Assembly: GCA_039028155.1 (NCBI GenBank)
Contig: JBCCIS010000018.1
Span: 1-64,000 of the forward strand
DNA length: 64,000 bases
From: Pseudomonadota bacterium
Lineage (GTDB): Bacteria; Pseudomonadota; Alphaproteobacteria; SP197
Direction: 5' to 3'
This document shows, piece by piece, positions 33,434 through 49,246 of the stretch (position 1 is its first letter; every line of letters starts with the position of its first letter). A program made the translations under genes and the position numbers. Under the pieces are notes generated by a model, which searched no databases, had not been told where the DNA came from, and worked only from the letters and a program-made list of their open reading frames with translations.

Positions 33434-33828
33434 GCCATCCCGACGACATCACCGCCGCCGAGATCATGGAACGCCTGACCGAGGCCGCGCGCACCCTGCG
33501 CCGCCTTCCCGCGGTCAAGGGTCCGCACGAACACCGCAGCCATTGGCCCGACTACGTGCATGCCGCCCAGGAGGCGTACGGCTATTCGGGTGTCGGGCGC
33601 ATCCGCATCACGCCCTCGCCGCGCGACATCGACGCCATGGACGAGGCGATCCCGTGGCTGCAGCTGATGGCGGACGACGACGCGCGCATCGCCTGGGCAC
33701 GCGCCAACCGGACGCCGTGGTGGAAGATCGGCGCCATCGCCGGCTGCGACCCCCGCACCGCGCAGCGGCGTTTGATGGAAGCGCTGTTGAAGACGGCCGC
33801 GACGCTGAACGAGCGGAAGGCGGGGTAG
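33430..33828 (+). CDS. DUF6362-like phage protein
   Basis: 132 residues. The layout (AARTLRRLPAVKGPHEHRSH, WPDYVHAAQEAYGY, then WLQLMADDDARIAWARANRT) matches DUF6362-type proteins common in alphaproteobacterial prophages. The C-terminal half includes a helix-turn-helix, WWKIGAIAGCDPRTAQRRL. Its ATG overlaps the preceding stop (ATGA). It is the last gene of the phage remnant. Confidence 0.7.
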   Translation: MSHPDDITAAEIMERLTEAARTLRRLPAVKGPHEHRSHWPDYVHAAQEAYGYSGVGRIRITPSPRDIDAMDEAIPWLQLMADDDARIAWARANRTPWWKIGAIAGCDPRTAQRRLMEALLKTAATLNERKAG

Positions 33829-33917
33829 GGCGCAACCGTGACCACCTATCCGTGTCCCCGGCGCGTGCGCTGGGGCATACTGTGCCGCGCATAGCCACAC
33901 CGAGGGGGGATCAGGCG

Positions 33918-35036
33918 ATGGCAACGCAGCAATGGGCGATCCATGACGAAGGCGACCGGTCGCGGCTGATCTGGTTGAGCGCGTTTCCGCTGATCGCGTT
34001 GACGGTCTTGGGCGTGCGCCTGGTCCAGGGGTTCATCTTCTGGGGCGGGGCGAGCCGGCGGCTGTTCTATGACTTTCATGAGATCCACGGCGTCGATTTC
34101 GCGGTCAAACTGGATTTCGAGTCCGCCGGTTTTGTCGCCAACAAGATGGTGCACGCGCTGCCCGGCGCGCTTTGGATCCAGGAGCCGTTGGAGTGGACGC
34201 TCGCCAACCCCGCGCTGATCGACCTCTCCGTTTGGTTCTGGACGTTCGCCGAGTTGATCGTCGGGGTGGGCCTGATCTTCGGGCTCCTGACACGCGGCCT
34301 GGCGCTGGTCAGTGTCGTCCTCAACATCGCGTTGATGATGATCTTCGGCTGGATGGGGTCGACCTGTCTGGACGAGTGGACGATGGCGGTCTCTGGCGTT
34401 GCCATGAGCGGCGCGATCGTGATTGCTGGTGGCGGGCGCCTGTCGCTCGATCACCTGTTTTTTGCGCGCGCGGTCGACAAGGGCCGGCGGCTGTGGCTGG
34501 TGTGGCTGACAAGTGGCGCGTTGACGCCGGTGGCGACGCGGCGCGCCGGCATCGCGCTGGCGCTGGTGTGCGCCATCTTCACCGTCGGCACCTATCACAT
34601 CCTGTTCGGCGCGGTCGTCTCGCCGCTGGATCCGCGGGTGAGTTTTCACCGCCACCACATTGCGCTGAGTGATGCGGCGCTCGCCGACAACGGCAGCGTG
34701 ACCTTCGACGCCTATGTCGATGCCGGGCCGGATACCGGTGCCGCCTATGTCGTCGCGGTGACGTTGACGGATCAAAGCGGCGCGATGCTGGCGACCTGGG
34801 ACGGCGCGGCGCTGGCGGCGCTGCCGGAAAGCGCGATCGACAACGTCTATCCCTATGTCTGGGCGGCGCACTTCAAGACCGAGGTCGTCGGCTTCAGCGG
34901 ATCGACCGGCGCGCGCGCGACGATCACGTTGCCCGCGCCCGCGAGCGGACTTGCGTTGCAGGCCGGCACCTACGACATACGGTTCGAAGCGATCGACGGC
35001 GCGACGTGGAGCGCCGAGGCCGCGCTTGCCGAATAG
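33918..35036 (+). CDS. thiosulfate:quinone oxidoreductase, fused DoxD-DoxA
   Basis: 372 residues from the ATG at 33918 (GGGGGA upstream). The first 240 residues are a DoxD-type membrane domain: FIFWGGASRRLFYDFHEIHG, LPGALW, the helix FAELIVGVGLIFGLLTRGLA and WMGSTCLDEW. The last about 110 residues are a DoxA-like periplasmic beta domain preceded by one more membrane segment. In Acidianus, DoxD and DoxA are separate subunits that oxidise thiosulfate to tetrathionate and reduce quinone; bacterial fusions are known. The next gene, 24 nt away, carries the COQ4 motif, so both may concern the quinone pool. Confidence 0.8.
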   Translation: MATQQWAIHDEGDRSRLIWLSAFPLIALTVLGVRLVQGFIFWGGASRRLFYDFHEIHGVDFAVKLDFESAGFVANKMVHALPGALWIQEPLEWTLANPALIDLSVWFWTFAELIVGVGLIFGLLTRGLALVSVVLNIALMMIFGWMGSTCLDEWTMAVSGVAMSGAIVIAGGGRLSLDHLFFARAVDKGRRLWLVWLTSGALTPVATRRAGIALALVCAIFTVGTYHILFGAVVSPLDPRVSFHRHHIALSDAALADNGSVTFDAYVDAGPDTGAAYVVAVTLTDQSGAMLATWDGAALAALPESAIDNVYPYVWAAHFKTEVVGFSGSTGARATITLPAPASGLALQAGTYDIRFEAIDGATWSAEAALAE

Positions 35037-35060
35037 GCATCGAGAGGGAGGGGAGACGCG

Positions 35061-36017
35061 ATGAAGGTCGATGCCTCGCCACAGGCGATGGCGGCGGTTC
35101 TGGGCGCGATGAAGACGGTCGCGTCCGCCGGCGATAGCGGCGCGCCGAGTGACGACGACCGCGCGGCGATCGCGGCGGCGGGTCACTTCTTCTTCGACCT
35201 GAAGAAACCGCTTGATGTGGCCGGCGCGGTCACGCCCGGCGAACTGGCGGGCGCGCTCACGGGCGATGACCTGCGCGGCCGTACAATCGGCTTCCTCGCC
35301 GTCATGGCGTTTGTCGACGGCGTGGTCGACAAGAAGAAGATCGCGCTGGTCGAAGACTATGCCGACGCGCTCGGGTTCGATGCGCCTTACCTGAAGGAGA
35401 TGAACGAGGCTGTGCTCGGCCATCTGCGTTGGGCGGGCATGGACATGGTGCGTCACAACATGCTGTCGATCACGCACAGGATGTGGGCGGACGGCGACGT
35501 CATGCCGTGGCTTCTGCCCTATCAGGACGCCAACAACGACCCGGCGCTCGCGAAACGGTTCCACGATCTCGAGCACCTGCCGGAGGGTTCGCTGGGGCAC
35601 AGCTTCTGGGATCACTACACCCACCACAAGTTCGCGTTTCCCGGCGAGCAGAACGCGCTGAACGCGATCTTCGCCGTGCCACACGACACCACGCACCTGT
35701 TGAGCGGCTATGCCACCACCTATGCCGGCGAGATCCTGGTCTCGACCTTCACCGCCGGCATGCATCCCGACCAGCCGGTCGCCGGCCACATCCTGCCGGT
35801 GCTGTTCAGCTGGCACCTGGGTATCGAGCTGATCGAGCACGCGGGCGCCCATAAAGGCGCGCTCGACCCCGTCCACTTCTGGGAGGCCTGGTCGCGCGGC
35901 CAGCAACTGACGACCGATGTGTTCGCGCCGGACTGGGATTTCTGGGCGCATGCCGAGGAACCTCTGGTGGACCTGAAGGCCGCCTATGGCGTGCCGGCGA
36001 AAGAGGCGCAAGTTTAG
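35061..36017 (+). CDS. COQ4-like protein with a TerB-like N-terminal part
   Basis: 318 residues. Residues about 74-107 (GRTIGFLAVMAFVDGVVDKK and the ALVEDYADALGF helix) look like a TerB/tellurite-resistance helical domain. The C-terminal half contains PHDTTHLLSGYATTYAGE: H208-D209-x-x-H212-x11-E224, the exact HDxxHx11E metal motif of COQ4. Further His-rich motifs (FHDLEH; HYTHH) surround it. COQ4 in mitochondria and some bacteria acts in oxidative decarboxylation in ubiquinone synthesis. GGGAGG is 6-8 nt before the ATG. An unrecognised function linked to the quinone-reducing DoxDA enzyme is possible. Confidence 0.7.
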   Translation: MKVDASPQAMAAVLGAMKTVASAGDSGAPSDDDRAAIAAAGHFFFDLKKPLDVAGAVTPGELAGALTGDDLRGRTIGFLAVMAFVDGVVDKKKIALVEDYADALGFDAPYLKEMNEAVLGHLRWAGMDMVRHNMLSITHRMWADGDVMPWLLPYQDANNDPALAKRFHDLEHLPEGSLGHSFWDHYTHHKFAFPGEQNALNAIFAVPHDTTHLLSGYATTYAGEILVSTFTAGMHPDQPVAGHILPVLFSWHLGIELIEHAGAHKGALDPVHFWEAWSRGQQLTTDVFAPDWDFWAHAEEPLVDLKAAYGVPAKEAQV

Positions 36018-36095
36018 GAAGCCAAGGCGTTTATTGGTTCTCGCAGGGTTCAAATGCGCATTTGCGCGCCGGTTTGCGTTGACTCGTCACCGTTT

Positions 36096-36120
36096 GCATA
36101 CATACAATGACAATGTATGC
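36096..36120. promoter_or_regulatory. operator-like palindrome upstream of the first serine-hydrolase paralog
   Basis: GCATACAT (36096-36103) and ATGTATGC (36113-36120) form an 8-bp perfect inverted repeat with 9-nt spacing. A TTGACT hexamer at 36078-36083 lies in front, with CATACA 17 nt downstream of it, so the palindrome would overlap a promoter -10 region. This is a reasonable site for a dimeric regulator of the gene at 36260. Confidence 0.5.
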
Positions 36121-36259
36121 AGTTTGTTGACGGTGATGTCGCCGATGCGGTTCGTGCATTACTTCGGCTAGATTATCCACCGGCGTGCGCAACGCCCGCG
36201 ATCAGACAGACACAACGGTTACGGAGTACGTTCGACAACAACACAGAGGGGTAGGAGCG

Positions 36260-37996
36260 ATGACACCGCGTGCATCAAGACGTCTGGCAATTGCCGTTCT
36301 GACGGCAGTCCTGATCGCGGCCGCACCACCCCTTGTCCGGGCCGATGTCGCACCCCCTGGCGACACCCGCGACCGCTTGACCTTCGACGAGTTGATGACG
36401 GGCGCACCGAACCGGGACGGTCCTGTCCACAACGATTACTTCATGCCCATCGGTCACGCGGACCCGGCGCACCATGCGTTTGAAGGCGTGCTTGGTTTCA
36501 TTGGCGCACCCTTCTTCGTCGGACAAGGGCGCTTTCCAAGTTTCCAGGTGTCCTTCGTCACGACAGATGGATACCTGGTGCCTGTTGAGCACGACATCGT
36601 GCAGCCGCTTTCCGGCGGCTGGGATCTAATCCTGTCGCCGGGACGGGTCTGGTCGGAGCCCGGCGACAACGGCTGGTCGCGTGCCTCATTCCCGTTCGTT
36701 CTGACGGGAAGGACGTGGAACGACAGCCACAACGGTCTCGCCACCTTTCTCTACAACGATACCGACGTGTCGGATGCAACGTTCCAGATCGTTCAGGAAG
36801 CAGCGTCCTGGTCGCGCTTCGATGCGTGGTCGCAGTTGCAATTGCTCTATCAGCCTGGTCCCGTCGATGGGAAGGCCGACCTTGTCGCGACATTCAACGA
36901 TATGTTGGCGCAGCGTATACCAACCGCGCCTCTCGATACGCTTAGCGCGGACAGCCACCTAATCGACGGCATGGAGCGTGGCCTGGGGCATATCACGGTC
37001 ACCGGACTGCTGGATGACGGCGTGCTTTACCGCACGCCTTGTTACACCCGTTACGGCGACTATCCCTATTGCGACGACATGCGTCATGGCGTCTATGCGG
37101 TGACGATGTCGGCGGGCGCCGCGCTGAGTCTCTTGTGGCTGGCCGAGCGCTACGGACCGGAGGTGTTCGACGCGAAGATCGCCGACAATGTCGACGTTAC
37201 CGCCGATCACGACGGCTGGAACAATGTGACGTTCCGCGACGCCATCGACATGGCGACCGGCATCGGCGAAATGGCGCCCAACCAGACATCGGCTATCGAT
37301 GATATCTATGCCGACGGGGAACGCTTCATCTATCGTTTCGCCAACGCGCTTGGTGTTGAGACCAAACTCGATGTCGCCTTCGAGGACGGCCGTTACGAAT
37401 GGGGACCCGGTGAGGTCGTCCGCTACAACGACCTGCACACCTTTACGCTCGCCGTCGCCATGGATGCCTATCTCAAGGACAGGGAAGGCCCGGATGCCCA
37501 CTTGTGGGAAATGGTGAGCGAAGAGGTGCTGCGGCCGATAGGTGTCGCGGTGGCACCCATGATGCATACGCGCGAAGCGGACCGCTCCCGCGGCATTCCG
37601 ATCATGGGCTGGGGTTTCTTCCCGACCCTCGACGACCTCGCCAAAATCGCCCAGCTCTATCAGGATCGCGGCGCGCACAATGGCCGACAGCTTCTCTATG
37701 CCGATGAAATCGACGTGTTGCTGGACGGCTCCGGCAGCGACCTGACGATCCCATGGAGAACCGCCTATGGCACCTACCGCTATGACTTTTCCTTCTGGTA
37801 CATGCCCTATCGAGGCCAGGCGTCGTGCGGCGTTGCGATCCCTGAGATGATTGGCATTGGCGGCAACATCGTGACCCTGATGCCTAACGGTATGACCGGC
37901 ATCCGGCTGGCAGATGCCGACGACGATTCCGATGCCATGTGGAGCGGCGAAAACATGGCGGCGTTGGCGGACAACGTGCGGTCGTTCTGTGAGTAG
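36260..37996 (+). CDS. secreted beta-lactamase-fold protein lacking the catalytic motifs (paralog 1)
   Basis: 578 residues from the ATG at 36260 (GGAG upstream) with a signal peptide cleaved near VRA-DVAPPGD. By alignment to paralog 3 (45420-47237), this is a serine beta-lactamase/penicillin-binding-fold protein with a long N-terminal domain of its own family. Where paralog 3 has SVTK, it has A280-V-T-M283, and where paralog 3 has YRN it has Y389-N-D391; the C-terminal HMSGWGGN is MIGIGGN. Both the acylating Ser and the general-base Lys are gone, so no hydrolase activity is expected. Neighbouring motifs (TPCYTRYGDYPYC, MATGIGE, EWGPGE) are well kept, so the fold is under selection. Confidence 0.85.
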   Translation: MTPRASRRLAIAVLTAVLIAAAPPLVRADVAPPGDTRDRLTFDELMTGAPNRDGPVHNDYFMPIGHADPAHHAFEGVLGFIGAPFFVGQGRFPSFQVSFVTTDGYLVPVEHDIVQPLSGGWDLILSPGRVWSEPGDNGWSRASFPFVLTGRTWNDSHNGLATFLYNDTDVSDATFQIVQEAASWSRFDAWSQLQLLYQPGPVDGKADLVATFNDMLAQRIPTAPLDTLSADSHLIDGMERGLGHITVTGLLDDGVLYRTPCYTRYGDYPYCDDMRHGVYAVTMSAGAALSLLWLAERYGPEVFDAKIADNVDVTADHDGWNNVTFRDAIDMATGIGEMAPNQTSAIDDIYADGERFIYRFANALGVETKLDVAFEDGRYEWGPGEVVRYNDLHTFTLAVAMDAYLKDREGPDAHLWEMVSEEVLRPIGVAVAPMMHTREADRSRGIPIMGWGFFPTLDDLAKIAQLYQDRGAHNGRQLLYADEIDVLLDGSGSDLTIPWRTAYGTYRYDFSFWYMPYRGQASCGVAIPEMIGIGGNIVTLMPNGMTGIRLADADDDSDAMWSGENMAALADNVRSFCE

Positions 37997-38104
37997 GCGA
38001 CGATCATCAGGCATCCTCGCGGAGGCCAAGCCAAAACGACCGAAGGGTGTTTTCCTCCGTCACCTAGCTCACGACAACTGTTACCTATTGAAGGAGACAT
38101 TTCG

Positions 38105-39115
38105 GTGACATCTTCCAGGAACGGCGTAACCAGGCGGAACGTCTTGGGGGCGGCAGCAGGTTCGGTTGTGATGTCGGCTGCGGCGACCGCGGGCGCGCAG
38201 GAGATGGCGACAACACCGCTGGCCGCCGGAGAACCCATCATCTTGACGATTTGGCAATTCGGCCGTGACGCAAACGCCGTAGGTTTCCCCGTGTTGCAGG
38301 CAGGAGGCTCAGCGGCCAATGCCGTCGAGGCCGCCATCAATCATGTGGAATTGCGACCCGATGCGTATTGGGTGGGCTATGGCGGTGTTCCCAATGAGGT
38401 GGGCGAAACGACGTTGGACGCGATGATTCTATGGGGACCGACACACGACGTCGGTGCGGTCGGGTGCTTGAAGCGGGTCAAGCGCGCCATCTCTGTCGCG
38501 CGAACGGTCATGGAGGAGACGCAACACTCGTTGATTGTCGGCGATGATGCGACGCGCTTTGCCGTGCGGATGGGCTTTCACGAGACCTCCCTCTCGACGC
38601 CGGGTTCCCAAGCTGTTTGGGAAGAATGGGCGGCGACCAATGAGTCCTCCGATGCCTTCGGGCCTGAGCCATATCAAAAGGACGATCTGGCCGGGCATGA
38701 CACGGTCGGGTCTATCGCTCTCGATGCCGATGGCAATCTCTGCGTTGGGTGTTCCACCAACGGCCGTGAGTTCAAGATACCGGGTCGTGTCGGCGACTCA
38801 CCCATTGTGGGCGCAGGCGCTTTTGCCGATCAGGACGTTGGCGCTGCCGTTGCGACCGGGAATGGTGATGTGATGATGCGATTTTTGCCGACCTATCACA
38901 CGGTTGAACTTATGCGAAGCGGCATGCCGCCAGGCGATGCGGCGGCAGCGGCCATCAAGCGCATTACCGACAAGGGCTACACGTTCCGGGGCGGCATCGT
39001 TGCCATGGCCATTGATGGCCGGCATGGCGGTGCGCATTCAGGATGGGAACAAGCTGGATTCGGCTATGCCGTTCAGACCGAGCAGGGCGCGATGACCTTT
39101 CCCATTCCAGGCTGA
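38105..39115 (+). CDS. Tat-exported glycosylasparaginase / N4-(beta-N-acetylglucosaminyl)-L-asparaginase
   Basis: 336 residues, GTG start with AGGAGA about 7 nt upstream. A twin-arginine leader reads TRRNVLGAAAGSVVMSAAAT. The Ntn-hydrolase signature is GHDTVGSIALDADGNLCVG with T200 as the nucleophile freed by autocleavage between D199 and T200, and CSTNG follows. The family removes the asparagine from N-glycans or hydrolyses isoaspartyl peptides. Length matches bacterial glycosylasparaginase precursors. It lies between paralog 1 and paralog 2 of the serine-hydrolase family, on the same strand, 109 nt after the former. Confidence 0.9.
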   Translation: MTSSRNGVTRRNVLGAAAGSVVMSAAATAGAQEMATTPLAAGEPIILTIWQFGRDANAVGFPVLQAGGSAANAVEAAINHVELRPDAYWVGYGGVPNEVGETTLDAMILWGPTHDVGAVGCLKRVKRAISVARTVMEETQHSLIVGDDATRFAVRMGFHETSLSTPGSQAVWEEWAATNESSDAFGPEPYQKDDLAGHDTVGSIALDADGNLCVGCSTNGREFKIPGRVGDSPIVGAGAFADQDVGAAVATGNGDVMMRFLPTYHTVELMRSGMPPGDAAAAAIKRITDKGYTFRGGIVAMAIDGRHGGAHSGWEQAGFGYAVQTEQGAMTFPIPG

Positions 39116-39288
39116 CAGGAGTGATGGGTTTTGCGAGGACGGGCCAATTGGGACGCGTGCCAGGACGGTGCCCACCTTGTCACTCACGATGCTGGTGGAT
39201 CATGCGAGGGTGACGTGGTTGTAGGGTTCCTGCCACACAGCTTTGACACCACGTCAGCGCCACTGGGCTGCTGCCCACCGAGGCAGCC

Positions 39289-41079
39289 ATGAAGTCTCTG
39301 CCTGCCTTTGTCATTGTACTGCTGTTCACGGTAACGCCCATGGTGAGTCTCGCCGACGTTGCGCCGCCCGGCGATGTGCGCGACCGCCTGACCCATGAGG
39401 AGTTGATGGCGGACACACCAAACGAGGATGGGCCAATCCACAACGACTACTTCATGCCGGTCGGGTTGCATGAACCGGCGCTTCACGAGCTGTCCGGTGT
39501 GCTCGTGTTCTCGGCGACGGAGTTCTTGGAAGACACAGGGCAGACAGCCGACATGTATGGGCTGATGCTCAACGAAAGCGGCCATCTGATTCCGGCGGAA
39601 GAGTTCCCCGAGTTTGCGGCATCGTTCATGACCGTGCAAGGTCATCTGGTGCCCGTTGAGCGGGATGTCATTCGCACGCAGTCTCCCGACTGGGATGTTG
39701 TTCTTTCACCGGGCAGGGTCTGGACAGAACCCGGTGACGACGGGTGGTCACGCGCGTCGTTTCCGTTCGTTCTGGTCGGGCAAAAATGGAATGATACGCA
39801 CAATGGGATTGCGACGTTTCTCTATAACGAAACCGAGACGTCCGACCTTCAGTTTCAAATCGTTCAGGAATCCGCTGAGTGGTGGCGCTTCTACACGTGG
39901 GCGCGCGTGCCGCTGGCTTATCAACCGGGGCCGGTTGCGCAAAGACAGGAATTTGAGGCAGCGTTCGCCGACGAACTTGCACGGCGACTGCCGACCGCAC
40001 CCCTTGCATCCCTGGATGCCTCTTCTGGCGCGATCGACGGCATGACGCACAACCTCAAGCATTTGACGCTGACCGGGCTGGTCAGCGATGGGACGTTCTA
40101 TCGCACACCCTGTTACACGCGGTTTGGGGACTATCCGTATTGTGATGCGATGCGGCACAGCGTGTACAACGTGTCGGTCTCGGCCGGCGCGGCCCTAAGC
40201 CTCTTGTGGCTTGCAGAGAAGTACGGCCCGCATGTCCTGGATCTGAAGATCGTCGATTATGTCGATGTCGTGACACATCACGACGGCTGGCAGGATGTGA
40301 CGTTTCTGGACGCGATCGACATGGCGACCGGCATTGGCAGCCTTGCCGGGCTGGAGGGCTCTCGCCGTTATGACTTCGAAGACGACTTGGAAGCGCTCTA
40401 CTACGCGCAGTTTCATGACGCCGCGGACGCGCAAGGGCGGCTGGATGCCGCGTTCCTGGCCGGTAACTACAGCTGGGGACCAGGCGAGATCGCCCGATAC
40501 AGCACCGCACAGACCTTTGTGCTGACTGCCGCCATGGACGCTTATCTGAAGCAGGAGGAAGGGCCGGACGCACACCTGTGGGAGCGGGTATCCAATGAGG
40601 TGCTGTTGCCGATCGGCGTGCATCATCTCCCGATGGCCCACACACGCGAGTCCGACGGCGAACCGGGCTTGCCACTGCTTCACTCCGGCCTGCTTCCAAC
40701 AGGTGAGGATCTGGCAAAAATCGCCATGCTGATTCACGACCGCGGTGCCGTCGACGGGCGTCAGGTGCTTTATGCCGATGAAATCGATCGGCTCCTCGAA
40801 GGCGACCTAAAGAGAGGGTTGCCCATCAACTGGCGCACGCGCGATGGGCAGTACGGTTATGACTTCTCTTTCTGGTTCATGCCTTTTACCTCAGCGGATG
40901 GTTGTTGGGTCCGGATCCCAAAGATGATGGGTAACGGCAACATTGTCGCGCTCATGCCCAACGGTACCACGGCGATCCGTCTGGCGGATGCGACGCCTGG
41001 GACACCCGGCATGTATGAAGCAGAGAACATGGCGGCGTTGGCGGATAACTTGCGGTCGTTCTGTGAGGTGTCGCCATGA
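39289..41079 (+). CDS. secreted beta-lactamase-fold protein lacking the catalytic motifs (paralog 2)
   Basis: 596 residues with a signal peptide (MKSLPAFVIVLLFTVTPMVS, cleavage near LA-DVAPPGD). Aligned to paralog 3, the SxxK position reads N294-V-S-V297, the YxN position Y404-S-T406 and the third motif MMGNGN. So the catalytic Ser/Lys pair is lost, as in paralog 1, but by different substitutions. The surrounding TPCYTRFGDYPYC, MATGIG and SWGPGE motifs are intact. It heads a four-gene operon: its stop overlaps the next start (ATGA). Confidence 0.85.
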   Translation: MKSLPAFVIVLLFTVTPMVSLADVAPPGDVRDRLTHEELMADTPNEDGPIHNDYFMPVGLHEPALHELSGVLVFSATEFLEDTGQTADMYGLMLNESGHLIPAEEFPEFAASFMTVQGHLVPVERDVIRTQSPDWDVVLSPGRVWTEPGDDGWSRASFPFVLVGQKWNDTHNGIATFLYNETETSDLQFQIVQESAEWWRFYTWARVPLAYQPGPVAQRQEFEAAFADELARRLPTAPLASLDASSGAIDGMTHNLKHLTLTGLVSDGTFYRTPCYTRFGDYPYCDAMRHSVYNVSVSAGAALSLLWLAEKYGPHVLDLKIVDYVDVVTHHDGWQDVTFLDAIDMATGIGSLAGLEGSRRYDFEDDLEALYYAQFHDAADAQGRLDAAFLAGNYSWGPGEIARYSTAQTFVLTAAMDAYLKQEEGPDAHLWERVSNEVLLPIGVHHLPMAHTRESDGEPGLPLLHSGLLPTGEDLAKIAMLIHDRGAVDGRQVLYADEIDRLLEGDLKRGLPINWRTRDGQYGYDFSFWFMPFTSADGCWVRIPKMMGNGNIVALMPNGTTAIRLADATPGTPGMYEAENMAALADNLRSFCEVSP

Positions 41080-41864
41080 TCCGCGCAGTGTGCGTCATAC
41101 TTCTTGGCTGCCTGCTGACGACAACCGCACACGCCGAAAGTGAGATCGTCACGTTCCCGGTGACCGAGTTCTCGGGCGAAACGACCATGCTGCGGGCGAA
41201 GCTCAACAGGCCCGAAGGCGACGGCCCATTCCCGGCGGTCGCGCTGCTGCACGGATGCAACGGTCCAAACTTTGTGAGCACTTTGGACGAACAGATCTTT
41301 GAGCCGATGGGTTATGTCACGTTGGTCATCGACAGTTTCGGTCCGCGTGGTCTCGCGCACGCATGCGACAGCACGAACGCGTATGTCGCGCCTCCTTCGA
41401 TACGCGCCCTCGATTCCCATGCTGGAAAGGCGTTTCTGGCGCGTTTGTCCTATGTCAATGATGAACAGATTGGTGTTGTCGGATGGTCCCATGGCGCGAT
41501 GAGCATCTTGAGGGCCATCAGCAATGATGTCTTGAACCAGCCGGATCGACAGGCCCCCTTCAAGGCGGCCGTCGCGTTTTACCCACTCTGTCCAACGAGA
41601 CTAACCGGCACCGATGCTCCGCTGCTTATCTTGATCGGCAGTGCCGATACGTCGACACCGCTCGCGCGATGTGAGTCCTTGTCGCTAGCCGGTGACAGCG
41701 AGGTCTACGAGATCATCGTCTACCCCGGGGCCACCCATGCCTTCGATTGGGTGGACTCTCCCGGAGAGTTCTATGGTCACAGGATGATCTACGACGCCGA
41801 GGTGACGGAAGACGCCTACCGCCGCATGTTCGACTTCCTGGCGTTGCACGTGCAAGCGCCATGA
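41076..41864 (+). CDS. secreted dienelactone-hydrolase-like protein, copy 1
   Basis: 262 residues with a short signal peptide (MIRAVCVILLGCLLTTTAHA). The alpha/beta fold has nucleophile motif GWSHGAMS and a C-terminal His in PGATHAFDW; the acid is in ILIGSADTSTP. It resembles dienelactone hydrolases but is exported, which is unusual for that family. Start overlaps the preceding stop (ATGA) and its own stop overlaps the start of copy 2 (ATGA). The two copies share the leader, the ESEIVTFPVTEFSGETTML block and GDAP-type motifs, so they are a tandem duplication. Confidence 0.85.
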   Translation: MIRAVCVILLGCLLTTTAHAESEIVTFPVTEFSGETTMLRAKLNRPEGDGPFPAVALLHGCNGPNFVSTLDEQIFEPMGYVTLVIDSFGPRGLAHACDSTNAYVAPPSIRALDSHAGKAFLARLSYVNDEQIGVVGWSHGAMSILRAISNDVLNQPDRQAPFKAAVAFYPLCPTRLTGTDAPLLILIGSADTSTPLARCESLSLAGDSEVYEIIVYPGATHAFDWVDSPGEFYGHRMIYDAEVTEDAYRRMFDFLALHVQAP

Positions 41865-42652
41865 TCCGCGCACTTGTCACCACTCTTCTTGGATGTCTGC
41901 TGGCGACGACCGGTCGCGCCGAAAGCGAGATCGTCACGTTCCCCGTGACCGAGTTCTCCGGCGAGACCACGATGCTGGAGGCCAAGCTCACCGTGCCTCA
42001 AGGAGAGGGACCGTTTCCGGCGGTCGTGCTGCTGCATAGCTGCGGTGGAACTGACCAGGAGGGGACGTGGGCTAATTACACCCGGATAGCGTCGTGGGGC
42101 TATGTCACGCTGCGCATCGACAGCTTTGGGCCGCGCGGCATCGATCATTTGTGTGCGCCGTCACCGGACATAGACCGTGCAAGCTACGCCACGCGGGCGC
42201 GCGACGCCCACGCGGGACGAGAGTTTCTGGCGAGCTTGCCCTATGTCGACGGCGACAGGATCGCCGTTGTCGGCTGGTCCCACGGCGGCAACAGCGTCAT
42301 GAAGGCCATCAGCAACATATCGAGGTATGAGCCGCGCACGACGACACCATTCAACGCGGCCGTCGCGTTCTATCCCTTGTGTGATTTGACCCGCGGTCTG
42401 GATGCGCCACTCCTGATCCTGACCGGCGATGCGGACAACCTGACGCGGGCTTGGAACTGCGAGACGATGGAACTTCCCGATGCAACGCAAAGCTTCGAGC
42501 TCGTCGTCTACCCCGGCGCGACCCATGCGTTCGATTGGGAGGGTGAGGATGTTGTCTATCGCGGACATAAAATGTCCTATGACCCGGAAGCGACGGCAGA
42601 TGCCTATCGCCGCGTGGAGGCGTTCTTGGCGCAGCACCTGCAGGCGCCGTGA
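41861..42652 (+). CDS. secreted dienelactone-hydrolase-like protein, copy 2
   Basis: 263 residues, start ATG at 41861 overlapping the previous stop. The signal peptide is MIRALVTTLLGCLLATTGRA. The nucleophile motif is GWSHGGNS, the acid is in LILTGDADNLT, and the His is in PGATHAFDW. The N-terminal 35 residues are nearly identical to copy 1, whereas the active-site flanks have diverged (LLHSCGG against LLHGCNG). Both keep their catalytic triads, so they may have different substrates. Its stop overlaps the GTG start of the following gene. Confidence 0.85.
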   Translation: MIRALVTTLLGCLLATTGRAESEIVTFPVTEFSGETTMLEAKLTVPQGEGPFPAVVLLHSCGGTDQEGTWANYTRIASWGYVTLRIDSFGPRGIDHLCAPSPDIDRASYATRARDAHAGREFLASLPYVDGDRIAVVGWSHGGNSVMKAISNISRYEPRTTTPFNAAVAFYPLCDLTRGLDAPLLILTGDADNLTRAWNCETMELPDATQSFELVVYPGATHAFDWEGEDVVYRGHKMSYDPEATADAYRRVEAFLAQHLQAP

Positions 42653-43062
42653 CGCGTGCGACATGCATTGCGTTCGCCGCGTGCCTCATAGCCGTAGTTG
42701 CCGGCGCGCTATCTTTGTCGACGCCCGTTTTGGCAACCGAGCCAATCGTCGGTACCTGGCAGGGCATCATCATTGAAAGGGGTCTAGATCCCTATAACGC
42801 CACGCTGGTCATCGAGAGTACCGACGAGGGAACGAGTTCCTATCCCGAGTACGACTGTGACGCCCGGCTCACCCTGATATCCGTCGATGGTGCGATCCAT
42901 GAATACAGCGAGATCATTACGCGTGGGCGGTTTCGTTGTACAGACGGTTATCTCCAGCTGACCGTTGACGGCGACGAGCTGATCTACAGTTGGACCGAGG
43001 AGCGGCAGGGCGACGACGTCATCTACACAGGTAGACTGCAGCGACTGGATGAAGTGCCGTGA
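42649..43062 (+). CDS. small exported protein of unknown function
   Basis: 137 residues, GTG start overlapping the previous stop (GTGA). An N-terminal signal peptide runs to about LSTPVLATE. The mature part is beta-rich: VGTWQGIIIERGLDPYNATL, SSYPEYDCDARLTLISVDGA, GRFRCTDGYLQLTVDG, with two cysteines that could pair. It has a lipocalin/DUF-like look but no family is claimed. It closes the operon 39289-43062, so it probably works with the secreted hydrolases. Confidence 0.7.
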   Translation: MTRATCIAFAACLIAVVAGALSLSTPVLATEPIVGTWQGIIIERGLDPYNATLVIESTDEGTSSYPEYDCDARLTLISVDGAIHEYSEIITRGRFRCTDGYLQLTVDGDELIYSWTEERQGDDVIYTGRLQRLDEVP

Positions 43063-43181
43063 CCCGCGGTATCGTCGAGCGCTTCGACTTCCTGTCTGCG
43101 CGGGGAAACGAGGTCGCCATTTTCGCGGTTCACGCGCGTTCTGCCAGAATGGAGACGCTATCGCTGACGTGAGAGTCCGTC

Positions 43182-43556
43182 ATGGATGGTAACGACAGAG
43201 CGAGAAAACGACATGAGGAGGCCGCCAAGCTGCGGCAAGTGGCTAACTCCGCGGCGCCGCGCGCCTACCAGGATCCGAAGAAAGAGGCGCTTAAACTCGA
43301 AGACCTCGATCCCAACGACAACAACAACAAAGGCATGGACAACACCACCTTCGGTAATGTCGTCGATCTGTATGGCGCGTTTACCCAGGACGATTCGTGG
43401 CGCACCAGGCCCATCTCCACGGCGGTCTCGATGAGTTCCTATGCGCTCGCGTACATTCTTCTGCTGATCGTGCTGAGCGTCGCCCAGTGTTCCTGGTGGT
43501 ATGAGCCCGGCATGTACTCCGATAACGACGCGCGGACCGTGGCGCACGGCCGCTGA
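43182..43556 (+). CDS. small membrane protein of unknown function
   Basis: 124 residues. The N-terminal half is hydrophilic and asparagine-rich (LDPNDNNNKGMDNTTFGNVV), and one hydrophobic segment lies near 84-102 (AVSMSSYALAYILLLIVLSV). A short tail follows. No family is recognised. It is 119 nt after the operon end, on the same strand, and converges with the cysteine hydrolase gene. Confidence 0.5.
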   Translation: MDGNDRARKRHEEAAKLRQVANSAAPRAYQDPKKEALKLEDLDPNDNNNKGMDNTTFGNVVDLYGAFTQDDSWRTRPISTAVSMSSYALAYILLLIVLSVAQCSWWYEPGMYSDNDARTVAHGR

Positions 43557-43595
43557 TGCGCGTCGGCCGCGCGCCTCAGATCAGCGAGCGGCAGG

Positions 43596-44153
43596 TCAGT
43601 CCCCGTCGCCGCTGAGGTATTCGTCGGTCGACTTCAGCGTCGCATAGGCGAAGCCGAGCGCGCTCATATAGGCGGCGTGGGCTTGGCGGGCGGGGATGGT
43701 CTCGCCCTCGAACTCCAGGTCGCGGGACGCGCAGGCGTCGTGGATGACGGTGCAGGTGTAGCCGAGATCGCTTGCCGCGCGGGTCGCGGCGTCGACGCAC
43801 ATGTGGCTCATGGCGCCGCAGATGACGAGGTTCTCGACGCCGTTATTGCCGAGCACGTCCTGCAGGTCGGTCTCGTGGAAGGCGTTGACCTGGTGTTTGA
43901 GGACCTGCGGCTCGCCATCCTTGGGCGCGACGTCGCGATGGATCTCCGCGCCCGGCGATCCCGCGACAAAGAACGGCGCGTCGTCTTCGACAAAGTTGTG
44001 GTGGACGTGAACGATCAGGTCATCGGACTGGCGAAACTTCTCGACCATCTTGGAGGCATTGGCCGACGCGGCCTCGATGCCGTCAAGGGTCCACTTGCCG
44101 TCGGGGTAATAGTCGTTCTGCAGGTCGATGATCACGAGCGCGGTCTTGGTCAT
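43596..44153 (-). CDS. isochorismatase-like cysteine hydrolase
   Basis: 185 residues. The catalytic triad of the isochorismatase/nicotinamidase fold is D10 (LVIIDLQNDY), K86 (LKHQVNAF) and C119 (MSHMCVDAATRAA), the last with the conserved cis-peptide. Members hydrolyse nicotinamide, isochorismate, carbamoyl or N-formyl amides. The ATG at 44151-44153 is preferred; the open frame extends to 44246 but those 31 residues overlap the divergent promoter. It diverges from a GlxA-type regulator, a common arrangement for this family. Confidence 0.9.
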   Translation of the reverse strand: MTKTALVIIDLQNDYYPDGKWTLDGIEAASANASKMVEKFRQSDDLIVHVHHNFVEDDAPFFVAGSPGAEIHRDVAPKDGEPQVLKHQVNAFHETDLQDVLGNNGVENLVICGAMSHMCVDAATRAASDLGYTCTVIHDACASRDLEFEGETIPARQAHAAYMSALGFAYATLKSTDEYLSGDGD

Positions 44154-44268
44154 GGCGGTGTCCTCCGGCGGTTGCGTGTCGTGGGTGTTCCTGGGCTGGA
44201 CAACGTAGTCATGAGGGCGCAGGGTCGGAATTGGCACAAATGACATAAAACACGGTGAAACTGACAGG

Positions 44269-45249
44269 ATGACGGAAGAGAGCGGCGCCGCGACGGCGAT
44301 TGGCGTGCTGGCCTATCCGGGATCGCAGGCCTGTGCGGTGCACGGCCTGAGCGATCTGTTCGCCGTCGCGAACGGCATCGCGGAAGAGAGCGGGGCATCG
44401 TCGGGACCGGCCTTTTCCGTCAGCCACTGGGCGGTGTCGGGCGATGGCGGCGATGTCGTCATGACCGATGGTCCCGGTGAGGGCGGTCACCAGCAACTGG
44501 GCGCGTTGATCGCTCCGCCATGTCTTGGCGAGCAGGGGCCGGAGGCATTCGCGCCGCCCGTCCTGGCCTGGATCCAACGGCAGCACGGCGGTGGCGCGGT
44601 GATCTGTTCGATCTGCGCCGGCGCGTTCCTGCTGGGCGAGGCGGGGTTGCTCAACGGACGCGCGGCGACGACGCACTGGGCCCTGGCAGAGCAGTTCGCC
44701 GATCGGTTCAAGGGCGTGCGGCTTGAGACCGACAAGCTGATCGTGGACGACGGCGACATCATCACCGCCGGCGGCGTGATGGCGTGGGTCGATCTGGGGC
44801 TTCGTCTGGTCGACCGCTTCGTCGGTCCGACGGTGATGCTGGATGTCGCGCGATTTTTCCTTGTCGACCCCAGCGGCAGGGAGCAGCGATTCTATAGCGC
44901 CTTCGCACCAAGTCTCGGCCATGGCGACGAACCAATTCTGGCGGTCCAGCATTGGCTGCAGACCAACAGCGAGAGCGCCGTGACGATCGCGTCGATGTCG
45001 TCGGTCGCCGGATTGAGCGAGCGGACATTCCTGCGGCGCTTTCAGAAAGCCACCGGCCTTAAGCCCACCGCCTATGTGCAGTCGCTGCGTGTCGGACGGG
45101 CGCGCGAACTGTTGGAACAGTCGTCGCTGCCGTTCAATCAGATCGCCTGGAAGGTCGGCTACGAAGACCCTGCGGCCTTCAGCAAGGTGTTCCAGCGGAT
45201 CATGGGTCTTGCACCCGGCGAATACCGCCGGCGTTTCTCCGTGGGTTGA
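44269..45249 (+). CDS. GlxA-family transcriptional regulator (DJ-1/PfpI-like plus AraC HTH)
   Basis: 326 residues. Residues about 10-190 form a DJ-1/PfpI-like domain with AVICSICAGAFLLGEAGLL at the nucleophile-elbow position (a Cys is present) and TTHWALAEQF. Residues about 225-320 are two AraC helix-turn-helices: IASMSSVAGLSERTFLRRFQ and LPFNQIAWKVGYEDPAAFSK. The arrangement is that of GlxA regulators. The isochorismatase-like gene is divergent, 115 bp away, and is the likely target. Confidence 0.92.
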   Translation: MTEESGAATAIGVLAYPGSQACAVHGLSDLFAVANGIAEESGASSGPAFSVSHWAVSGDGGDVVMTDGPGEGGHQQLGALIAPPCLGEQGPEAFAPPVLAWIQRQHGGGAVICSICAGAFLLGEAGLLNGRAATTHWALAEQFADRFKGVRLETDKLIVDDGDIITAGGVMAWVDLGLRLVDRFVGPTVMLDVARFFLVDPSGREQRFYSAFAPSLGHGDEPILAVQHWLQTNSESAVTIASMSSVAGLSERTFLRRFQKATGLKPTAYVQSLRVGRARELLEQSSLPFNQIAWKVGYEDPAAFSKVFQRIMGLAPGEYRRRFSVG

Positions 45250-45419
45250 ACCAGGTGCGATCTGAAGGAGACCTGTAGCGGACGGCCATCCTGTGCCAAC
45301 GCGTTTTTCGGTCAAGCGGGCCGGCACGGTTTCCGTAAAGACGGAAAATGCGCTAACGTCGGCGCCGCGTGAACACATGTGTGACGTATCTCGGCAACAA
45401 GACCGGGGAGCGCCAACAG

Positions 45420-47237
45420 ATGAGCGACTATCTTTCGAGGGGGAAGGGGAGAAAAGGTCGGCGCGGGCGGCATGTGATGCCGTTCGGCGACGCCTTTGGC
45501 GTGCGCGCCGTCGTGCGGGCATGTATCGGGCTCGCGGTGTTGACTGCCATAGCGATCGGCGGGGCGCGGGCCGAGGTCGAGGCGCCGGGCGGGGTGCGCG
45601 ACGTGTTGACGGCCGAGGTGCTGCGTCATGGCCGGCAAATGGGCGACGAGGCCGTGCACAACGGCTGGTTCATGCCGGTCGGCGCGTCGGCGCCGGCGCT
45701 GCATGCGTTTACCGGCACGCTTCATCTGCCGGAGACGCGGATGGCGGGCTTCGACGGTGGCGACAGGGGTGATGCATGGTTCCCCGCGGTCGCGCTGACG
45801 TTCATCAGCCATGACGGTTATCTGATCCCCGTCGAGCCGGGCATCGTAGGCGGGACGGGTTCGCGCAGTCCGTGGGATATCATCGTGTCGCCAGGACGCA
45901 TTTGGTCAGAGGCCGATGACGGCGGGCGCTCGCGCGCGTCCTTCCCGTTCGTCTTGGCCGGCGGCGCGTGGTGGAACGAGGCGCATAACGGCTTGGCGAC
46001 GTTCGTCTTCGATGACGACGGCGTTTCCGACGTGCGGTTCCAGATTGTGCAGGAGACCGCGCCCTACAACACCTTCGACGGATTTGGCCGGCTCGAAGCG
46101 ACTTATGATCCCCATGATGTCGCGCAGGCGGCGGCCGTGCTCGCGGCGTTCAAGATGGACCGCGCGGCGCGTCTGCCGGTGCGCCCGTTCGCCGACCTGG
46201 AAAGCGGTTTCTCACTGGCGGCGATGCGCACCTTCGCCGGGCGCTATCGCGACGAGCCGGTCAGCGCCAGCGGGCTGGTGGTCGACGGCGTCATCTATCT
46301 GCGCCCGTGCGAAACGCGCTACGGCGACTTCCCCTATTGCGAGGAGATGCGCCATGGCGTCTTCTCGGTGACCAAGTCGCTGGGCGCGATGGTCGCCATG
46401 CTCTACCTTGCCGAAAAGCACGGTGACCATGTTTTCGATCTAAGGATCAGAGATTACCTGGAGGTCACCGCGCACCATGACGGCTGGCAGGACGTGACCT
46501 TTGCCGACGCGCTGAACATGGCGACCGGTATTGGCGAGGGATCGCCGAACGCGGGCAGCGCGCATTACTATGCCGAAGTCTTCCCGGGCTGGAAGACGAC
46601 ACTGTTCCTGGATTCCCCATCAACTTCCGGCAAGCTGCGCGCCGCGTTTGCCGGTCTTGACTATGACTGGGGCCCCGGCGAGATCTTTCGCTACCGCAAC
46701 ATGGATACGTTTGTTCTGGCGGCCGCCATGGACAGCCTCGTGAAGAGGTTGGAAGGGCCGGAAGCCAACATGTGGGACAACGTCATGGCCGAGGTGTTGC
46801 AGCCGATCGGGATTCCCTCGATCCCGATCTCGCGTACGGTCGAGCCGGATGGCGGGACGGGCATTCCGATGATGGCCGCCGGCCTCTATCCCAACGTCCA
46901 CGACATCGCCAAGATCACGTCGCTGCTGCACACCAAGGGCCGCCATGACGGCCAACAGCTGTTAAGCGAAGCGAAGCTGGACGAGGCGTTCTACCGCACG
47001 CCGATACGCGGGTTGGACGTGCCGGGGTTCGACGAGACCTATCACATGTCGCTTTGGTACTTCTGGGTGCGCCAGGGCCCGTGCCGGGTGACGGTGCCGC
47101 ACATGTCAGGCTGGGGCGGCAACATCATCGAGGTGCTGCCCAATGGGCTGACCGCGTTTTTCCTAAGCGACGACTTCGTCAACGAATACCGCGCGGTCGC
47201 CGAGGCGGCGGGCGAGGTACGTCCACTTTGTTCGTGA
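45420..47237 (+). CDS. secreted beta-lactamase-fold serine hydrolase with intact motifs (paralog 3)
   Basis: 605 residues from the ATG at 45420 (GGGGAG upstream); an ATG at 45477 would give a cleaner signal peptide around RACIGLAVLTAIAIGGARA, and a GTG at 45369 is least likely. Serine beta-lactamase/PBP-fold family: S316-V-T-K319 (SVTK), Y425-R-N427 and HMSGWGGN near the C-terminus match SxxK, YxN and the third motif. It should be an active acyl-enzyme hydrolase or peptidase of unknown substrate. The N-terminal about 250 residues are shared only with the two paralogs (DGYLIPVE, SPGRIWSE, RASFPFVLAG). Two cysteine-containing motifs (PCETRYGDFPYC) suggest a disulfide. Confidence 0.88.
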   Translation: MSDYLSRGKGRKGRRGRHVMPFGDAFGVRAVVRACIGLAVLTAIAIGGARAEVEAPGGVRDVLTAEVLRHGRQMGDEAVHNGWFMPVGASAPALHAFTGTLHLPETRMAGFDGGDRGDAWFPAVALTFISHDGYLIPVEPGIVGGTGSRSPWDIIVSPGRIWSEADDGGRSRASFPFVLAGGAWWNEAHNGLATFVFDDDGVSDVRFQIVQETAPYNTFDGFGRLEATYDPHDVAQAAAVLAAFKMDRAARLPVRPFADLESGFSLAAMRTFAGRYRDEPVSASGLVVDGVIYLRPCETRYGDFPYCEEMRHGVFSVTKSLGAMVAMLYLAEKHGDHVFDLRIRDYLEVTAHHDGWQDVTFADALNMATGIGEGSPNAGSAHYYAEVFPGWKTTLFLDSPSTSGKLRAAFAGLDYDWGPGEIFRYRNMDTFVLAAAMDSLVKRLEGPEANMWDNVMAEVLQPIGIPSIPISRTVEPDGGTGIPMMAAGLYPNVHDIAKITSLLHTKGRHDGQQLLSEAKLDEAFYRTPIRGLDVPGFDETYHMSLWYFWVRQGPCRVTVPHMSGWGGNIIEVLPNGLTAFFLSDDFVNEYRAVAEAAGEVRPLCS

Positions 47238-47267: not shown

Positions 47268-49013
47268 TCAGGCCGGCAGTCCGGCCGAGGTCAGGTCGCG
47301 CAGGATACGATCGGTGATGACGCGATCGGCAAACTTAGGTTCGCTCTTCACGAAAGCGGACGCGCGAAAGTCCGGGTCGACGCGCAAGAGAGCGGCGACG
47401 GCGTCCTGCCGCTCGCCGGGGTCCTCTAGACACGCCTGATTGCCGACCCGATAGGCGAGCGCGCGCAGGCTCGGGCGACCAAGCCCATTGAAGGCGTCGC
47501 GCGCTTCTTCGTGCTGGCCGTTCAGATAAAGGGCGACGAACTCTTCCTCCCGGCACCAATCAGGCAGGAACGGGTCCTGTCGCATCGCCTGATGAACGAG
47601 TTCCAAGGCACGATCGAAGTTGCCGACGGCGATGTAGTGAACCGCTGAACGCGCCTTGACGTAGGCGTCGTTCGGATTGAGCTCTATCGCCTTTTCGTGA
47701 TGAACCTCGGACCGGCGAAAGTCGCCTTCATAAAGAGCAATGGCGCCGACGATGCGATGGGCCTCCGATTCATTGGGATCGAGGTCCAGGGCGCGGTTCG
47801 ATTCGTCGACGCTGCGCTTGTACCATTCGCCCCGATCGTCCATCAGCCAGTTCCACGAGCCCGCACAGGCCCGCCACGCGTGAGCGCGCGCGAAGTTGGG
47901 CGACAGTTCGATCGCCTTCTCGATCCATGTCACCGCCTGTTCGGCGTTCTCCCGCGACAAGCCGCCGACATGGTGAAAGGACAAACCGCGCAACAGGCAG
48001 TCATAGGCTTCAATGTTGTCGGGCGGCTGCCGCTTGGCGGCATCCATGCTGGAGGACTGCACACGATTGGCGATCGTCGCGACGATCTTGCCAATCAGTT
48101 CGTCCTGGACATCGAACAACTCCTCGCCCTTGGCATCATAACGTTCCGCCCAGACGTGGTTGTTGGTCTGGGCCTCGATCAACTGGGCTGTGATGCGCAC
48201 ACGCGGGCCCAGCCGCCGAACGCTGCCCTCAAGCACATAACGCACCCCCAGTTCCCGTCCGACCTGGGTCAGGTCGACCGCCTCGTCCTTGTAGGCAAAG
48301 CTTGCGTGCCTAGAGATGACGAAGATGGACTTGAAGCGTGAGAGTTCGGTGATGACGTCTTCGGTGAAGCCGTCGGAGAAGTACGCCTGTTCGGCGTCGT
48401 CGCTCATGTTCGTGAACGGCAGCACCACGATCGACGGTTTGTCGGGCAGCGGCGGCGCCAGGCCTTCCTGGCGCTGGCTGTTCTGCAGGCGGTTGACTTC
48501 GATGTCGCCGGCGACGGCATAGACCGTGGTCGGACCCTCGATGTTCTTGAATGCCTTTGGACCCAGGCATGTGAAGCCGAAGCCGGCCGATTTCGCCACC
48601 TGATCATAGATTGGCGCGCTGATATGAACCTCGCCGGGGGCACAACCGGCTTCGATGCGTGATGCGATATTCACACCGTCGCCAAGAAGCGTTCCATTTT
48701 CGACGATCACATCGGCCAGATGGACGCCGATCCTGAGCATCATCTTGCTGTCGGCCTCCAGCTCGCGGTTCTCGAGCACCAGGTCCCGCTGCGTCTCGAC
48801 CGCGCATCGCACGGCTTTGACGGGACTGGCAAACTCGGCCACGAAACCGTCGCCGGCTTCGCCGAAGATCCGGCCGCCGGCCTCGGCGACGCGGTCGGCG
48901 AGAATGCCGCGCAGCTTGGCCAAACGTTTTATGGCCGCTTCCTCATCAGCCCCGACAAGACGCGAGTAGCCGGCGACATCAGCGGCAAGGATGGCGGCAA
49001 GATGCCGTTCCAT
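47268..49013 (-). CDS. class III adenylate/guanylate cyclase with TolB-like and TPR domains
   Basis: 581 residues from the ATG at 49011-49013 (AGGAGG upstream). Residues 1-185 are a class III cyclase domain: the metal-binding Asp in ILAADVAGYSRLVG, a second Asp in GEAGDGFVAEF and MLRIGVHLADVI. Residues about 195-300 are TolB/FlgO-like (SIVVLPFTNMSDDAEQAYFS, GVRYVLEGSVRR). Residues about 340-560 hold TPR units such as NPNDAYVKARSAVHYIAVGN. This domain order is common in alphaproteobacteria and rhizobia. It makes cAMP or, if catalysis is lost, acts as a sensor. It converges with paralog 3. Confidence 0.9.
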   Translation of the reverse strand: MERHLAAILAADVAGYSRLVGADEEAAIKRLAKLRGILADRVAEAGGRIFGEAGDGFVAEFASPVKAVRCAVETQRDLVLENRELEADSKMMLRIGVHLADVIVENGTLLGDGVNIASRIEAGCAPGEVHISAPIYDQVAKSAGFGFTCLGPKAFKNIEGPTTVYAVAGDIEVNRLQNSQRQEGLAPPLPDKPSIVVLPFTNMSDDAEQAYFSDGFTEDVITELSRFKSIFVISRHASFAYKDEAVDLTQVGRELGVRYVLEGSVRRLGPRVRITAQLIEAQTNNHVWAERYDAKGEELFDVQDELIGKIVATIANRVQSSSMDAAKRQPPDNIEAYDCLLRGLSFHHVGGLSRENAEQAVTWIEKAIELSPNFARAHAWRACAGSWNWLMDDRGEWYKRSVDESNRALDLDPNESEAHRIVGAIALYEGDFRRSEVHHEKAIELNPNDAYVKARSAVHYIAVGNFDRALELVHQAMRQDPFLPDWCREEEFVALYLNGQHEEARDAFNGLGRPSLRALAYRVGNQACLEDPGERQDAVAALLRVDPDFRASAFVKSEPKFADRVITDRILRDLTSAGLPA

Positions 49014-49246
49014 AGGCGACCTCCTAGACCTCCCCAGACTAGCGATCGAGGGGCCAAAAATCCATTTGCCGGCTACAACAACGCCGCGTCCGTGCTGTGT
49101 CCGGCCGGCAAGAGCGGTTTCGCCTGCCTTGACGGAACCGCCAAGTGATCCCATCAAGGCCGGGTCCGCACTAGCCGATTGATCGGTTTTCTATTTCGAC
49201 GAAATGGGATCATATGGCTCCAGCATGCCGAACAGGAGGCCTAGTT

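Follow-up and report, generated by a model that had tools for sequence, protein, structure and literature searches.

Can an exported hydrolase that has lost its catalytic residues still be worth keeping, and what would it then do? Such dead copies of bacterial secreted hydrolases usually receive the label beta-lactamase or serine hydrolase in annotation, or else they are dismissed as decay. The question is raised by a marine-type alphaproteobacterium in which a 64,000-nucleotide stretch of DNA (the window) carries, at positions 36260-47237, three paralogs of one hydrolase family, here called P1, P2 and P3 (Table 1). An earlier note on this DNA had described three secreted paralogs, and this description is borne out: all three reading frames are intact, their N-termini are signal-peptide-like, and the proteins are 57% (P1-P2), 43% (P1-P3) and 41% (P2-P3) identical. 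Our reading is that P1 and P2 are very probably maintained pseudoenzymes. On balance we also favour the fuller account, in which they are exported members of a two-domain SxxK family that would act by binding, within a fast-turnover array that includes the intact P3.

Table 1. Features of the locus, in window coordinates.
Feature	Position	Strand	Remark
P1, secreted protein of two domains with SxxK hydrolase fold, catalytic Ser/Lys lost (AVTM)	36260..37996	+	
P1 codons for AVTM at the SxxK site	37097..37108	+	A280, M283 of P0001
Asparaginase_2/glycosylasparaginase	38105..39115	+	between P1 and P2
P2, secreted paralog, catalytic Ser/Lys lost (NVSV), third motif shortened	39289..41079	+	
P2 codons for NVSV at the SxxK site	40168..40179	+	N294, V297 of P0002
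Secreted dienelactone-hydrolase (DLH)-type alpha/beta hydrolase	41076..41864	+	start overlaps P2 stop (ATGA)
Second secreted DLH-type hydrolase	41861..42652	+	start overlaps first DLH stop (ATGA)
P3, paralog with intact SVTK, YRN, MSGWGGN	about 45477..47237	+	start codon inferred
P3 catalytic SVTK codons	46365..46376	+	S315, K318 of P0003

Homologs came from three sources: the host's order (matches in 14 of 16 genomes), a contig scan whose search patterns did not contain the catalytic motif (60 loci), and a sample taken across the class; the alignment and tree comprise 83 rows once duplicates and fragments are taken out. Rows are called SxxK-bearing, active or intact where the catalytic motif is present, a label taken from sequence alone. 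Family members occur in Alpha- and Gammaproteobacteria, Desulfobacteraceae, Chloroflexota, Actinomycetota and Rokuibacteriota, share an unannotated N-terminal domain of ~230 residues followed by an SxxK hydrolase domain, and nearly all keep the serine and the lysine. In Pfam, P3 scores 46 bits against PF00144 (gathering cut-off 27), and P1 and P2 fall below detection. The N-terminal ~230 residues had no Pfam match in any of the 48 members scanned, NCBIfam gave only a sub-threshold match, to 3-succinylated cholic acid synthase, and a plasmid search returned only distant homologs (about 31%), partly annotated as serine hydrolase or beta-lactamase family protein.

The SxxK region aligns without ambiguity between invariant flanking residues (GVFSVTKSLGA in P3, GVYAVTMSAGA in P1, SVYNVSVSAGA in P2), so that a misalignment, which the earlier note had named as a way in which it could be wrong, is not the explanation. 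P3 carries the SxxK and YxN motifs of a catalytic member, with a family-specific M-x-G-x-G-G-N in the [KH]-[ST]-G position and no classical KTG; P1 and P2 lack both the nucleophile and the lysine. The blocks C-x-T-x-x-G-x-x-P-Y-C, MATGIG, WGPGE and RASFPFVL are present in all three paralogs, as had been reported. The further claim that all three catalytic motifs were erased does not hold as stated, since P1 and P2 both retain the second motif and P1 also the third. Both proteins retain the tyrosine of YxN, and the YND of P1 and YST of P2 should not be counted as losses because members that keep SxxK may have any of N, D, S and T in the third place (YNS, YTS, YDT, YNT, YRD). Likewise, the MIGIGGN of P1 lies within the family range, being comparable with MIGTGGN (L026), MAGLGGN (L063) and MVGAGGN (L066b) of SxxK-bearing members; for P2 the claim stands, as MMG-NGN combines a one-residue deletion with a G-to-N change and is a real departure.

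How narrowly the changes fall on the catalytic residues can be seen at the 53 columns conserved at >=90% across the intact set of 72 rows. In P1 the exceptions are S315A, K318M and a gap at 530 next to an indel, in P2 they are S315N, K318V and G565N (P0003 numbering), and each protein keeps the 50 other positions; L038 and L041, their SxxK-bearing neighbours, have one and two exceptions. The probability that the serine and the lysine would both be among three random departures is about 0.002 per protein.

The modelled structures agree with this picture. AlphaFold2 models were obtained for P3 (pLDDT 92) and P1 (pLDDT 93, pTM 0.94), and both match the same structures, namely Lsa45, PIB-1, NylB-type enzymes and family VIII esterases; the PBP/family VIII esterase fold is thus kept in the model of P1. 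Lsa45 (8dc1), PIB-1 (8rlj), NylB (6-aminohexanoate-dimer hydrolase) and family VIII esterases such as EstG have SxxK, YxN and the fold in common with P3. The PBP/class C beta-lactamase superfamily (PF00144) shares its fold with the P1 model at about 15% identity to these proteins, and differs from P1 and P2 in having the nucleophile and the lysine. The models give most of the N-terminal ~230 residues a confident, beta-rich fold. This domain is extra with respect to all of these known relatives and is apparently uncovered by the PDB matches listed, the top ones being single-domain hydrolases with about 340-440 aligned columns in a full-chain search. A phmmer search of P3 against PDB chains returned nothing, and a profile search against the PDB gave weak matches to the catalytic domain only. 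P1 and P2 thus have homology to an enzyme family with the same fold (41-57% identity; PBP/esterase matches for the P1 model), as is expected of pseudoenzymes. Among the papers that our literature search covered, none offered a direct precedent for a pseudoenzyme with this fold.

The other mark of a pseudoenzyme, a gene maintained by selection after its catalytic residues are lost, was sought by codon maximum likelihood (GY94, F3x4, branch classes; a purpose-written implementation). With synonymous sites near saturation (pairwise dS 1.1-2.5), omega (dN/dS) on the P1 and P2 tips was 0.099-0.102 as against 0.12 (0.121) on the L038 and L041 tips, with no significant difference (dlnL 0.2-0.3). Fixing omega at 1 on P1 and P2 costs 74 log-likelihood units on the topology in which each pairs with its SxxK-bearing neighbour, and 156 when P1 and P2 are constrained to form a clade with its stem included. 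For the catalytic domain alone, omega was 0.084-0.087 in P1 and P2 and 0.087-0.09 in the SxxK-bearing sisters, and the amino-acid tip branch of this domain is 0.21 for P1 versus 0.48 for SxxK-bearing L038, showing no acceleration of P1. The per-branch dN/dS comparison called for in the earlier note therefore gives omega of about 0.1 in both proteins, the same as in their sisters, and relaxed selection is not seen. Serine and lysine are gone from genes with omega of ~0.1; P1 and P2 are under purifying selection, and decay is strongly disfavoured because omega is as in SxxK-bearing sisters. It should be noted that the losses could have occurred late on the P1 and P2 branches, in which case omega may in part record a time when the proteins were still catalytic; close orthologs of the two, by which the losses could be dated, were not found.

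Whether the active site was lost once or twice is less clear. In a careful tree with catalytic columns excluded, P1 groups with L038 (bootstrap 92) and P2 with L041 (bootstrap 96), a pairing that implies two losses; a P1+P2 clade, and thus a single loss, is not rejected (p-AU 0.12 and 0.07). Segment-wise tests of five segments favour no topology decisively, full-length codon likelihoods tie with the N- and C-domains favouring different topologies, and within the catalytic domain the codon and amino-acid data point to different ones. Exchange within the array could be behind this conflict. The earlier description of the sites as independently erased does not hold as stated: the one-loss alternative stands unrejected (AU p 0.07-0.12), and differing replacement residues do not establish independence.

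Loss of catalytic residues extends to other members, and in this respect the pseudoenzyme reading stands and reaches further than the earlier note had seen. L057d1 carries S315A and Y424N; L103b (SIGN) carries K318N and Y424L, departs at only those two conserved columns and adjoins an SxxK-bearing sister, L103; L119 and L121 have SMTP and SLSS at the SxxK site; and L123 (ALSH) lies on a long branch and is less certain. The SxxK-bearing L103 (7848-9711) is itself split by a frameshift in its MAG, which could be either a sequencing error or real decay. The seven dead rows require six changes on a quick tree, at least five of which are forced by well-supported branches. A single family has thus undergone such a loss on at least about five occasions, with changes almost confined to the two catalytic residues, and in g109, the genus of L119 and L121, all sampled genomes carry one dead lineage. 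A copy lacking the lysine is present in 6/6 genomes of this genus (SLSS, SMTP, AMSF), is syntenic in the three genomes examined, and shows pairwise omega mostly of 0.1-0.3, with one pair at 0.40. At loci L134, L135 and L136 of this genus, the genes of the conserved neighbourhood encode an ABC transporter, a glycosyltransferase, a metallophosphatase, a DAG kinase and a 17-kDa antigen. A search of the g109 genomes with L121 (E<=1e-60) returned no second family copy. A close paralog is therefore not needed for a dead form to be maintained, and an intact partner is no general requirement.

Comparison within the host's genus used two genomes, both fragmented (118 and about 500 contigs), and shows rapid turnover of the array. 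In G003 (MAG PL23b_bin.48), the other genome of the genus, the flanks are conserved at 85-90% DNA identity (33825-36480 corresponds to L048 5590-8242, and 43115-43556 to L048 19280-19720), and P3 corresponds to the start of L049, with an ortholog 90% identical. Between these flanks lie five other copies, only about 65-73% similar (L044, L038, L043 and the two halves, L057d1 and L057d2, of a fused double protein), together with three DLH genes; yet another copy, L041, sits elsewhere in that genome. The fused protein (L048:9590-13306) is a single 1238-aa ORF in which a dead domain (AITK, Y to N) precedes an SVTK domain, with no internal signal peptide. Conserved co-occurrence of all three paralogs, which the earlier note had looked to as support for a common system, is not observed, as only P3 has a close (90%) ortholog and the remaining array members differ. 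A block at the start of P1 (36185-36480) is ~85% identical to that of L044 (L048 7896-8242). This L044-like block takes in the opening ~220-300 bp of P1 together with upstream DNA, whereas the body of P1 is closest to L038 and L041; a start and a body from different clades suggest unequal exchange inside the array.

What is kept in both same-genus genomes is only a P2-type gene plus overlapping DLH-type hydrolases, P2 and L038 each overlapping the start of a DLH gene by ATGA. The glycosylasparaginase gene has no DNA match in G003, and no homolog of it was found beside any other family member; we rejected it as a linked gene, and it is probably outside the conserved unit. The single extracellular degradation system that the earlier note saw hinted at here does not hold as stated; the two DLH-type hydrolases do belong to the conserved unit. 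The stretch at 43596-45249 that separates the DLH genes from P3 holds an isochorismatase-type hydrolase and a divergent DJ-1/AraC regulator, neither of which occurs in the syntenic interval of G003. A cyclase/TPR gene at 47268-49157 adjoins P3, with homologs also near the fourth family copy (L054, L100); it was rejected as a linked partner because the genome that carries it has 23 matches to its product.

Taken together, lost catalytic residues, purifying selection as in the sister genes and, for P1, a kept fold make a retained non-catalytic role, as first proposed, the best reading. Lacking the nucleophile serine and the general base lysine, P1 and P2 would be unable to form an acyl-enzyme, and conservation by selection despite this loss points to proteins that probably bind rather than cut. 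For P1, whose pocket is otherwise retained, binding of the substrate class or pairing with an SxxK-keeping member would be the most likely role. For P2, an altered third motif and a stop codon overlapping a DLH start make a protein partner more likely, whether through protein-protein contact in general or as a partner of the DLH-type hydrolases. That P1 and P2 work together with the intact paralog or the DLH enzymes we rate at a little short of an even chance. A prozyme-type heteromer of dead and active copies is a candidate arrangement: the copies are neighbours in the array, and in the same-genus genome one dead domain is fused to an SxxK-bearing domain. More tentatively, the family may repeatedly yield dead paralogs that are obligate partners or substrate-binding subunits of SxxK copies, with fusions as the extreme form and with arrays diversifying between conserved flanks in close species.

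The main alternative, possible but the less probable, sees in P1 and P2 extracytoplasmic proteins that work alone, binding a ligand in the old substrate pocket with no intact partner. The near-complete set of other conserved positions in P1 is in its favour, as is the g109 lineage, the only detected family copy in all six genomes and set in a syntenic envelope-lipid neighbourhood. It is opposed by the damaged third motif of P2, which argues against unchanged ligand binding, and by the distribution of dead copies among related loci, where they are confined to multi-copy loci with SxxK-bearing copies (2/3 multi-copy loci, 0/56 others) and one is fused to such a domain. The fusion thus favours partnership and the solitary g109 lineage autonomous binding. 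New catalytic chemistry in the same pocket is improbable: the scaffold and the tyrosine of YxN are retained in both proteins, but no replacement nucleophile/lysine pair lies near the lost SxxK (AVTMSAG, NVSVSAG), and the site residues differ between P1 and P2, which would not be expected of one new chemistry. Least probable of all are decaying duplicates under relaxed selection, for although a fast-turnover tandem array and the longer tip branch of P2 (0.48-0.51) might suggest them, omega matches that of the sisters, the frames stay open and full-length at ~40% divergence, and departures fall almost entirely at catalytic positions.

Maintained pseudoenzymes of this kind have counterparts in other systems. 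Beetle GH28 polygalacturonases likewise form a secreted hydrolase family that has expanded and in which dead members persist alongside active ones; their role is unresolved and their inactivity was shown by experiment (PMC8213348), whereas the members described here are dead by sequence. They differ from P1 and P2 in being eukaryotic, pectin-degrading and of unrelated fold. In trypanosomatids, a dead paralog (the AdoMetDC prozyme; likewise in deoxyhypusine synthase) activates the active one in a proven complex (PMC5201418, PMC3663545). There too a dead paralog is maintained beside an active one, and activation by a dead partner would be a model for P1 and P2; the trypanosomatid proteins, unlike P1 and P2, are cytosolic biosynthetic enzymes. 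The present family is a natural setting in which to learn what the scaffold contributes beyond catalysis; it also cautions that annotation as a beta-lactamase is no proof of resistance or activity. As a minor observation, the sample label PL23b, carried by the same-genus bin, occurs in a study of Porites lutea coral skeleton (PMC9868349).
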